64,000 nucleotides of DNA from an uncultured Bradyrhizobium sp. (GTDB taxonomy: Bacteria > Pseudomonadota > Alphaproteobacteria > Rhizobiales > Xanthobacteraceae). The stretch covers positions 124,001 through 188,000 of the forward strand of contig NZ_CANSMR010000005.1 in assembly GCF_947648125.1 (NCBI RefSeq), given 5' to 3'. Position numbers and translations under genes: made by a program. This document shows positions 16,778 to 22,030 of this stretch, in pieces. How positions within the stretch are numbered: position 1 is the stretch's first letter; each line of letters opens with the position of its first letter. The notes beneath the pieces were generated by a model. That model was not told the origin of the DNA and did no database searches. It saw only the letters and a list, made by a program, of their open reading frames with translations.

Positions 16778-19390
<2,613 letters not shown>

Positions 19391-19492: not shown

Positions 19493-19759
19493 ATGACGCA
19501 GAACATCAAGGACAACATGGAGGTCATCGGCGCCGATGGCGTGCATGTCGGCACCGTCGATCGCGTGGAAGGCAACCGCATCAAGCTCAAGAAAAGTGAG
19601 AGCGACGGCTTCCACAAGGGCCATCACCACTATATCGAGCTCGGCTTCGTTGCCGGTGTCGAAGGCTCCAAGGTGCGGCTCTCCGCCAACGCCGCCATTG
19701 CCGTGACCCTCGAGGAGGAAAAGTCCGGCAAGCCGGTTGGTCCGTCCGCGGAAGCCTAG
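19493..19759 (+). CDS. DUF2171 domain protein
   Basis: An 88-residue protein starting MTQNIKDNMEVIGADGV at 19,493, with AGGGAG 6 bases upstream. It has the DUF2171 (PRC-barrel-like) pattern: VHVGTVDRVEGNRIKLKK followed by HHHYIELGFV. Such small cytoplasmic beta-barrel proteins are common in rhizobia, often in stress regions; the function is unknown. It lies between clpB and the peroxidase/encapsulin operon. Confidence 0.8.
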   Translation: MTQNIKDNMEVIGADGVHVGTVDRVEGNRIKLKKSESDGFHKGHHHYIELGFVAGVEGSKVRLSANAAIAVTLEEEKSGKPVGPSAEA

Positions 19760-19879
19760 CAATCCGGGCTCTTGTAAAGGCTCCGGTGGCATGCTCCTCT
19801 CCCCGGTATCTGGACGTCAATCCGGCGTCCGGCCCGTCTTCTTGTCGTCGTGGAAGTGCCGTTAGTTAAGGAGAGATGC

Positions 19880-20941
19880 GTGCCATCAGCCGTTCCGCAA
19901 CCGGTCGCTGCGAAGCTGACGCGCGCGGCCATCTTCCTTGCGGTCACGATCAAGCCCAATCCGGAATATGATACAGTGGTGCGGTCGCTGTGCGCCGATC
20001 TGGCCGCGCTGGTGCGCGCGGTCGGCTTCCGCGATCTCGAAGGCCGGCTGTCCTGCGTCATGGGCATCGGCTCGGATGCGTGGGACCGGCTGTTCGGTGC
20101 GCCGAAGCCGCAAGGCTTGCATCCGTTCCGCGAGATCAACGGCGTCCACCACGCCGTCGCTACACCGGGCGACCTGCTGTTTCACATCCGCGCCGTGCCG
20201 ATGGACCTGTGCTTCGAGCTTGCGACGCAGATCATGTCACGGCTCGGCGATGCGGTCGCCACCTCGGATGAGGTGCACGGCTTCAAATATTTCGATGAGC
20301 GCGACCTGCTCGGCTTCGTCGACGGAACGGAAAATCCGGAGGATCAGGCGGCGACTGAGGCCACCATCATCGGCGACGAGGACGCAGCCTTCGCCGGCGG
20401 CAGCTATGTGATCGTGCAAAAATACCTGCACGATCTGAAGAAGTGGAACGAGCTGCCGGTCGAGATGCAGGAGAAGATCATCGGCCGCACCAAGCTGTCC
20501 GACATCGAGCTCGACGATGCGGTGAAGCCGAGCTACGCGCACAATGCCCTGACGACGATCGTCGAGAACGGCGAGGAGCTCGATATCGTCCGCGACAACA
20601 TGCCGTTCGGCAACATCAGCAAAGGCGAGTTCGGCACCTATTTCATCGGCTATGCCAAGTCCCCGCACCGAATCGAGCAGATGCTGGAGAACATGTTCGT
20701 CGGCAAGCCGCCGGGCAATTACGACCGCCTGCTCGACTTCAGCCGCGCCGTGACCGGCACACTGTTCTTCATCCCGTCGGCGACCTTCCTGGAGGATGTC
20801 GCCAGCGAGGCGCCCGTAGCCGCGCCGGCTGAGCCGTCGCTGGATGACGCCGGGGCTGACGAGGCACCTGCACAACGAATACCGCCGTCCGACGGCTCGC
20901 TCGGGATCGGCTCACTCAAAGGAGAGGCTGGACATGAATAA
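19880..20941 (+). CDS. DyP-type heme peroxidase, encapsulin cargo
   Basis: I start it at a GTG at 19,880, preceded by AAGGAG with 6-7 bases; the residues from there (PSAVPQPV) match the family, while the ATG at 19,850 adds 10 unlike residues. The protein has 353 residues. It shows the DyP signature GFVDG with the catalytic Asp148, proximal heme His221 in SYAHN, and distal Arg238. After residue 305 a Pro/Ala-rich linker leads to the cargo-loading peptide DGSLGIGSLK (338-347), then GEAGHE. This C-terminal peptide docks the enzyme inside the encapsulin shell, whose gene overlaps the end of this one by 8 bp. It uses H2O2 to oxidise dyes, phenols or other donors. Confidence 0.94.
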   Translation: MPSAVPQPVAAKLTRAAIFLAVTIKPNPEYDTVVRSLCADLAALVRAVGFRDLEGRLSCVMGIGSDAWDRLFGAPKPQGLHPFREINGVHHAVATPGDLLFHIRAVPMDLCFELATQIMSRLGDAVATSDEVHGFKYFDERDLLGFVDGTENPEDQAATEATIIGDEDAAFAGGSYVIVQKYLHDLKKWNELPVEMQEKIIGRTKLSDIELDDAVKPSYAHNALTTIVENGEELDIVRDNMPFGNISKGEFGTYFIGYAKSPHRIEQMLENMFVGKPPGNYDRLLDFSRAVTGTLFFIPSATFLEDVASEAPVAAPAEPSLDDAGADEAPAQRIPPSDGSLGIGSLKGEAGHE

Positions 20942-21749
20942 CCTTCATCGGGGACTAGCCCCCATCTCGGACGCGGCATGGGCCCAGATCGAAGAGGAAG
21001 CCTCGCGTACGTTGAAGCGCCATCTGGCGGCGCGCCGTGTCGTCGACGTCGATGGCCCCAAGGGAATCGATTTCTCCGCCGTCGGCACCGGCCATCTCAA
21101 GAAAATTGCGACGCCCGGCGATGGGGTCGAGGCGACGCAGCGCGATGTCCGCGCGCTGGTCGAGCTGCGCGTGCCGTTCGAGCTGTCGCGCCAGGCGATC
21201 GACGATGTCGAACGCGGCTCCAATGATTCCGACTGGGATCCGCTCAAGGAAGCCGCGCGCAAGATCGCCTTCGCCGAGGATCGCGCGGTGTTCGATGGCT
21301 ACAACGCCGCCGGGATTCAAGGCATCCGTCAGGGCACCAGCAACCCGGTGCTGACGCTGCCGTCGAGCATCAAGAATTACCCTGGTGTGGTCGCGCAAGC
21401 GGTCAGCCAGTTGCGGCTCGCCGGCGTCAACGGTCCTTATACGCTCCTGCTCGGCACCGAGCCCTACACCGCGATCGGCGGCGCGACCGACGACGGCTAT
21501 CCTGTGCTGCAGCACATCCAGCGCCTGATCGACGGCAAGATCATCTGGGCGCCTGCGATCGAGGGCGGCGTCCTGCTCACCACCCGCGGCGGCGACTTCC
21601 AGCTCTCGATCGGCCAGGACCTTTCGATCGGCTATCTCAGCCACTCCGCGACCTCGGTCCAGCTCTACTTCCAGGAGACCATCACCTTCTTGATGCTCAC
21701 GAGCGAAGCGTCGGTGGTGCTTGCGCCGGTGGCGAAGAAGCCGGCCTAG
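20934..21749 (+). CDS. Encapsulin shell protein (family 1, HK97 fold)
   Basis: A 271-residue protein starting MNNLHRGLAPISDAAW at 20,934. The sequence matches the family 1 encapsulin plan: N-terminal helix that binds cargo peptides, RRVVDVDGPKG, LVELRVPFELSRQAIDDVERG, and the C-terminal GYLSHSATSVQLYFQET. It should self-assemble into an icosahedral protein shell loaded with the DyP peroxidase. The start lies inside the last codons of the DyP gene, and its ribosome-binding site AAAGGAGAGG lies within the codons of the cargo peptide, so translation of the two is coupled. Confidence 0.95.
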   Translation: MNNLHRGLAPISDAAWAQIEEEASRTLKRHLAARRVVDVDGPKGIDFSAVGTGHLKKIATPGDGVEATQRDVRALVELRVPFELSRQAIDDVERGSNDSDWDPLKEAARKIAFAEDRAVFDGYNAAGIQGIRQGTSNPVLTLPSSIKNYPGVVAQAVSQLRLAGVNGPYTLLLGTEPYTAIGGATDDGYPVLQHIQRLIDGKIIWAPAIEGGVLLTTRGGDFQLSIGQDLSIGYLSHSATSVQLYFQETITFLMLTSEASVVLAPVAKKPA

Positions 21750-21772
21750 CCCCATCGGCGTTCACTCTTCCA

Positions 21773-21821
21773 GGAAGCCTGCGGCCGAACTGTGCCGGAG
21801 GCTTCCGTTGAATTTCAACGG
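21773..21821 (+). promoter_or_regulatory. Hairpin and overlapping palindrome between encapsulin and the 64-residue gene
   Basis: GGAAGCCT (21,773-21,780) pairs with AGGCTTCC (21,799-21,806). Overlapping its end, CCGTTGAA-T-TTCAACGG (21,805-21,821) is a perfect 17-bp palindrome directly before the ribosome-binding site of the next gene. It could be an mRNA processing structure or an operator. Confidence 0.5.
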
Positions 21822-21835
21822 AGAGGAGGCGCGCA

Positions 21836-22030
21836 ATGCCGGACTACGATCTCTACATCAACCCGAAGAAGGCATCGGTCGGACTCTACGTCCGCAAGGG
21901 CGCCGGCCTCCCCGATCTCGGCGACGCAAAGGACTGGGTGTTCGACGGCACCTCGGCGCAAGCCAACCTGCCGCCGCAGCTCGTGAAAGAGATCGAGGCC
22001 AACGGCCACGCCTTTCGCGACATGGACTGA
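21836..22030 (+). CDS. Small hypothetical protein downstream of encapsulin, 64 residues
   Basis: The ATG at 21,836 has a strong ribosome-binding site (GAGGAGG, 6 bases). The protein starts MPDYDLYINPKKASVGLYVR and is mixed-charge, soluble, without signal peptide, cysteine or cargo peptide. I do not recognise the family. It is on the same strand 86 bp after encapsulin, so it could be a third gene of the nanocompartment operon. It converges with the MFS gene, whose stop is 9 bp away. Confidence 0.68.
   Translation: MPDYDLYINPKKASVGLYVRKGAGLPDLGDAKDWVFDGTSAQANLPPQLVKEIEANGHAFRDMD

Follow-up and report, generated by a model that had tools for sequence, protein, structure and literature searches.

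Organization of the locus

The window (the whole stretch of 64,000 nucleotides that was analysed) belongs to a genome of 8.57 Mb, presumably a Bradyrhizobium, the genus of its nearest named relatives in the GTDB scan described below. Five genes follow one another on its forward strand, in the order clpB, DUF2171, dyp, enc and a 64-codon open reading frame. The features of the locus are as follows.

16778..19390, + strand: ClpB disaggregase (Pfam AAA_2, ClpB_D2-small, Clp_N), upstream of the DyP operon and on the same strand
19493..19759, + strand: DUF2171 protein, 88 aa (Pfam DUF2171, E 2.8e-25)
19880..20941, + strand: DyP-type peroxidase cargo, GTG start (Pfam and NCBIfam DyP)
20891..20920, + strand: targeting peptide DGSLGIGSLK, read from the sequence (consensus GSLxIGSLK, available text of PMC10960027)
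20918..20927, + strand: AAAGGAGAGG, Shine-Dalgarno-like sequence for encapsulin, within the last DyP codons
20934..20941, + strand: 8-bp overlap ATGAATAA between encapsulin start and DyP stop, read from the sequence
20934..21749, + strand: Family 1 encapsulin shell protein, 271 aa, ATG start (Linocin_M18, encap_f1)
21773..21806, + strand: inverted repeat GGAAGCCT...AGGCTTCC, in the spacer that separates encapsulin from the small gene
21836..22030, + strand: conserved 64-residue gene that has no family assignment; GGAGAGGAGG lies before it at 21820-21829

The longest DyP reading frame starts mechanically at 19850, and GGAGAG (19870-19875) precedes the GTG at 19880; the stop codon ends at 20941. 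The peroxidase matched Dyp_perox_N (E 2.2e-31) and Dyp_perox_C (E 5.3e-62), and its best PDB match was the encapsulin-associated DyP 8u4z (E 2.1e-148). Its C-terminus, ...PPSDGSLGIGSLKGEAGHE, reads DGSLGIGSLK-GEA-GHE-stop. The protein therefore combines a DyP domain with a C-terminal GSLxIGSLK, the pair of features that marks a DyP encapsulin cargo. The shell protein scored 335 bits with Linocin_M18 (E 3.2e-100, cut-off 24.3) and 358.5 bits with NCBIfam encap_f1 (E 2e-107, cut-off 100), the closest PDB chain being the Klebsiella encapsulin 8u50 (E 1e-118). Residues R34, D38, T217 and D229 of the targeting-peptide site of KpEnc, as given in the available text of PMC10960027, are present when assigned by position; residue 230 is Leu here and Ile in KpEnc. 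With these motifs and binding residues, the DyP would be loaded into the shell via its C-terminal GSLGIGSLK, by the mechanism known from homologues.

The operon and the targeting peptide of the preliminary description thus held in coordinates, motifs and family matches, and the DyP-loaded Family 1 core operon is of a known kind. Indeed, the KpDyP/KpEnc system of Klebsiella pneumoniae consists of the same two core genes and carries the GSLxIGSLK peptide (PMC10960027, available text), and the Klebsiella plasmid copy has the same 8-bp overlap as the window. The Family 1 DyP operons in the available text of PMC8346489 likewise pair a DyP cargo with a Linocin_M18 shell.

Downstream of the shell gene, the inverted repeat was kept in most of 24 aligned spacers from close Bradyrhizobium (37 distinct spacers). 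Double changes occurred in 2 of its 19 predicted pairs, which amounts to almost no covariation.

The junction between the DyP and encapsulin genes

The encapsulin start lies 8 bp before the end of the DyP stop codon, the two genes sharing 20934-20941. The shell ribosome-binding site AAAGGAGAGG spans the codons AAA-GGA-GAG (K-G-E) and the first base of GCT (A), so that it is encoded by the end of the cargo peptide, as had been proposed. The generality of this arrangement was investigated in 86 distinct DyP-encapsulin junctions, taken from the window and from fetched loci after removal of identical sequences; many came from close relatives. The overlap measured 8 bp in 68 junctions and 4 bp in 5. 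A gap of 1-7 bp was found in 11, and the motif could not be located in 2. Counted from the first base of the Lys codon, the shell start lay 16 nt away in 75 of the 86, the others showing 17 nt (six), 18 nt (two), 15 nt (one) and 20 nt (one), with one unmeasured. On plasmids, the 8-bp overlap was seen in 7 of 10 operons (Sphingomonas, Sphingobium, Klebsiella, Burkholderia, Roseateles, Methylorubrum and Caballeronia); those of Rhodococcus and Streptomyces overlap by 4 bp and that of Paracoccus has a 1-bp gap. Overall, the junction first presented as a feature of the window locus recurs in most proteobacterial DyP operons examined; as far as these sequences go, the observation is true but general. 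On the same grounds the recurrence of overlap and spacing exceeds chance, despite the kinship of many junctions.

The preliminary description had also remarked on GEAGHE as an unusual peptide tail. In four junctions the DyP stop directly follows GEA or GDA (L011, L012, L089, L108) and in three it follows KK (L111, L160, L161), with the 16-nt spacing kept in all seven, which may represent only two to four events. Thus, where the tail is lost by an early stop (7/86), the nucleotides are conserved and the peptide is not. GEAGHE is therefore best read as the ribosome-binding site plus the start overlap, the HE (or YE, NE) before the stop being forced by ATGAATAA in the other frame. This reading agrees with published mutants, in which Lys346, the last Lys of the motif, was needed and Lys347, the next residue, had little effect (PMC10960027, available text). 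The tail would then have no targeting role and would simply be what the ribosome-binding site and ATGAATAA encode in the DyP frame.

The codons for the tail and for the final residue of the targeting peptide contain both the ribosome-binding site and the start of the shell gene. Translation of the shell is therefore probably coupled to completion of the cargo, as the overlap and the spacing indicate. The pairing predicted with the anti-Shine-Dalgarno tail amounts to -8.9 kcal/mol. The junction uses codons that are infrequent in 43 long open reading frames of the window: AAA makes up 13% of Lys codons, GGA (used twice at the junction) 7.5% of Gly, GCT 5% of Ala and TCA 4% of Ser, in a set picked for GC3 >= 0.75, a bias that makes A/T-ending codons look rarer. 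When the junction was recoded synonymously, 12% of 20,000 recodings were predicted to pair as strongly, which is not significant; this test therefore gives no sign of selection on Shine-Dalgarno strength.

That null result fits with ordinary close gene packing, in which overlap and ribosome-binding site would have no part in setting the cargo-to-shell ratio. Operons often contain short overlaps, and the 4-bp overlaps of Rhodococcus and Streptomyces and the 1-bp gap of Paracoccus are what mere packing might leave. We give this explanation a substantial minority chance. What speaks against it is the spacing, maintained at 16 nt in 75/86 junctions although the stop moves; a fixed spacing could, however, reflect shared ancestry without indels.

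Conservation of the 64-residue gene

The preliminary description had further pointed to a small gene after encapsulin. Its median dN/dS was 0.175 over 78 distinct coding sequences (1643 of 3003 pairs, the rest being left out because dS fell outside 0.05-1.5 or an estimate was lacking). Judged by this ratio, the open reading frame is a real gene under purifying selection. Thirteen positions were invariant in 53 aligned proteins (D5, Y7, N9, G16, V19, G22, D27, W34, G38, G57, H58, A59 and F60). The small protein gave no match with Pfam or NCBIfam up to E 10, or with PHROGs up to E 1. The fold predicted with a pLDDT of 90.3 is that of a small alpha/beta protein, perhaps YcgL-like. As for YcgL itself (DUF709, PF05166; PDB 2h7a), its Pfam model matched none of three small proteins up to E 10; hhalign controls were run in both directions with 100 shuffles each. 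The targeting motif, searched as GSL or [GSA]Lx[IVL]G[SA]L, was found in 0 of 79 collected small proteins.

Linkage of the small gene to encapsulin

The association was measured in a genus sample of 195 genomes, 33 of which carry the small gene, at 36 places. PF04454 scored over its cut-off in 41 genomes; three of these (G001, G120, G178), with weak two-piece matches (best E 2e-10), were set aside as unlikely Family 1 shells, leaving 38. Both genes were present in 31 genomes, the small gene only in 2, encapsulin only in 7 and neither in 155; with the three genomes kept, the counts become 31, 2, 10 and 152. Encapsulin thus accompanies the small gene in 31/33 genomes and adjoins it in 29, and 31 of the 36 places adjoin encapsulin. 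The unlinked places are single copies in G015, G037, G073 and G081 (the first and last of these genomes carry encapsulin at another site) and a copy in G004 beside a DyP without targeting peptide. One encapsulin-linked copy (G137) contains a stop. In an order sample of 297 genomes, sharing two (G000, G138) with the genus sample, the small gene occurred in 4, all with encapsulin, which was over cut-off in 9. Fisher tests of co-occurrence, in which kinship is ignored, gave 6e-27 (genus) and 4e-7 (order).

A scan of GTDB species genomes with query A1 yielded 71 small-gene loci. DyP and encapsulin lay within 6 kb, as contigs allow, in 55 of them, the small gene being downstream in 25 and upstream in 30; such loci occur in alpha- and gammaproteobacteria. 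The 55 include shells that are partial or truncated at a contig end (L123, L128) and frame-changed ones (L094, L098), and 55/71 is no rate, because A1 was derived mostly from linked copies, several loci come from genomes of the genus sample and many are closely related. Far from lying mostly away from encapsulin, the small gene is linked to it in both surveys, as the preliminary description had it.

Gene order was then mapped on a quick encapsulin tree, made without bootstrap from 79 distinct encapsulins of our choosing. The small gene lay upstream in 29, downstream in 26, on the opposite strand in 1 and nowhere near in 23, some of the latter labels resting on 1.5-kb flanks plus a genome search; one of the loci (L154) has a broken copy. 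These labels require 11 changes on the tree, and a minimum of 5 for the upstream state follows from the well supported branches. Both orders are seen in Rhodanobacteraceae (Gammaproteobacteria; Dyella, Frateuria and Luteibacter), upstream in L142 and downstream in L146, L147 and L155. Possible decayed small genes were detected in Methylorubrum extorquens (E 2e-5), in Mesorhizobium (L149, frame change) and, weakly, in G173 (E 0.58).

As a separate observation, the encapsulin genes of two Bradyrhizobium species (G174, L094:5104-5915; G077, L098:5103-5914) change frame at the same place, after residue ~32. The two species may share a disabling change, or the cause may be odder than that.

Neighbours of the small gene

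Among the neighbours of the 71 loci, DyP was found in 58, encapsulin in 55, DUF2171 in 45, ClpB in 36, CbpA in 19, CbpM in 16, an FAD oxidoreductase in 16, DUF2945 in 15 and GrpE in 4. The ClpB count is one of N-terminal matches, that of L145 being only a 24-residue piece. The FAD oxidoreductase and DUF2945 genes may be part of the same cassette. The stretch after encapsulin in Shinella (L081:8052-9541) contains an FAD oxidoreductase gene, resembling NDH-2 by eye, and one for DUF2945.

In 3/71 loci (L117, L122, L137) the small gene accompanies a DyP without a shell. In these, and in L065 from the genus set, the DyP ends just before the targeting-peptide position while the small gene is retained. 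The four stretches contain no shell gene and look as if shell and targeting peptide had been lost together. Neither DyP nor encapsulin lay within 6 kb in a further 13/71 loci. DnaJ-like CbpA and CbpM are near in 8 of these, 4 of the 8 also having GrpE; 2 have only DUF2945 among the neighbours tested; and 3, all Bradyrhizobium, have no tested neighbour, and the genes next to them encode, by eye, a transporter and an amidohydrolase-type protein. A copy in Rhizobium rhizogenes (L141) is near CbpA-, CbpM- and GrpE-like genes and, by eye, DnaK- and HdeD-like ones. On Shinella and Bosea plasmids a DUF2171-small gene-DyP series stands behind CbpA/CbpM; the accompanying encapsulin is intact in Shinella and fragmented in Bosea.

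Three further arrangements were seen. The Bosea plasmid encapsulin (L082:7420-8231) is in four frame pieces, and the preceding DyP retains its targeting peptide. On a Paraburkholderia caribensis plasmid (L083:8539-9666), a DyP with a targeting-like GGSLNIGALK has no encapsulin in its 12-kb stretch; a Lon-like gene (by eye) comes right after it on the opposite strand. Finally, the Bradyrhizobium genomes G139, G049 and G004 contain a second, diverged clpB-DUF2171-DUF2171-small gene-DyP locus (L063, L064, L065) in addition to one of the window type.

Role of the small protein

The reading that we favour, and hold to be somewhat probable, is that of a Family 1 encapsulin operon with DyP as cargo, next to stress genes, with coupled translation of cargo and shell, a non-targeting tail and a small protein serving as a cytosolic accessory. 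The small gene has stayed beside DyP and, in certain genomes, beside genes for chaperones. Its product would be neither part of the shell nor targeted cargo, and would work as a cytosolic accessory factor, for instance as an adaptor for chaperones or in the maturation of DyP. It is most likely an accessory protein of a stress-gene cassette. The link to chaperones is one of neighbourhood, CbpA being near only 19 of the 71 copies.

The small gene had been suggested to encode a third component of the nanocompartment. A dedicated component might bind the shell or the encapsulated DyP and alter loading, heme supply or substrate access. Most copies adjoin a shell gene, which leaves some probability to a shell partner: DyP and encapsulin lie beside the small gene in 55/71 loci and in two gene orders, and in the genus sample encapsulin is present in 31/33 genomes with the small gene and adjoins it in 29. 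Nevertheless, the targeting motif is absent from all 79 copies, and the gene is kept with shell-less DyPs (3/71) or with neither partner (13/71), so that a third shell component is not the best reading. In addition, 23 of the 79 encapsulins in the chosen tree set have no intact copy nearby, and the two-gene core operon of Klebsiella gave loaded shells (PMC10960027, available text). We therefore consider this role unlikely. A bolder joint proposal, in which the small protein is an undescribed dedicated partner of DyP encapsulins (for example a YcgL-like protein that prepares DyP for loading or tethers the shell to chaperones) and the ribosome-binding site within the targeting codons is a device selected to tie shell output to complete, loadable cargo, appears rather improbable as a whole. 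The small gene is still less probably a passenger among stress genes that cluster by moving together, unconnected in function with DyP or encapsulin: the same neighbours do recur, on plasmids too (DUF2171 45, ClpB 36, CbpA 19 of 71), but the gene is under purifying selection, its association survives gene-order changes and DyP (58/71) and encapsulin (55/71) are the commonest partners among the twelve genes tested.

Relation to described systems and implications

The surroundings of the operon differ between systems. The Klebsiella operon neighbours a formate dehydrogenase and an RpoH-like gene (PMC10960027, available text), unlike the window, and the Klebsiella plasmid copy has no small gene within 4 kb. 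Accessory genes are common in the DyP operons of PMC8346489; its available text lists oxidoreductases, cupins, DUF1345, DUF5709 and others, and leaves the small gene, ClpB and DUF2171 unnamed. The chaperone-rich surroundings of some small-gene copies, plasmids included, also recall the tLST, or locus of heat resistance (PMC8290217, available text), a likeness in single neighbours only and to be taken as a lead. The literature searched, including the available text of PMC8346489 and PMC10960027, contains no description of the small gene or of a ribosome-binding site for the shell within the targeting codons, though either may have been published elsewhere. Within this scope, what is new is the breadth of the fixed junction across DyP-encapsulin operons, together with an unnamed conserved gene that follows DyP-encapsulin, and sometimes chaperone genes, through gene-order changes.

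Among the Family 1 cargo classes catalogued in PMC8346489, DyP encapsulins are the most abundant, and the available text calls their general biological role speculative. An accessory gene found on either side of the operon, and near chaperones in some genomes, offers a concrete way to ask under which conditions cells need the shell. To judge from the junction, the last part of the targeting region would do double duty, so that, when DyP operons are recoded or truncated, changes to the tail may alter shell translation.
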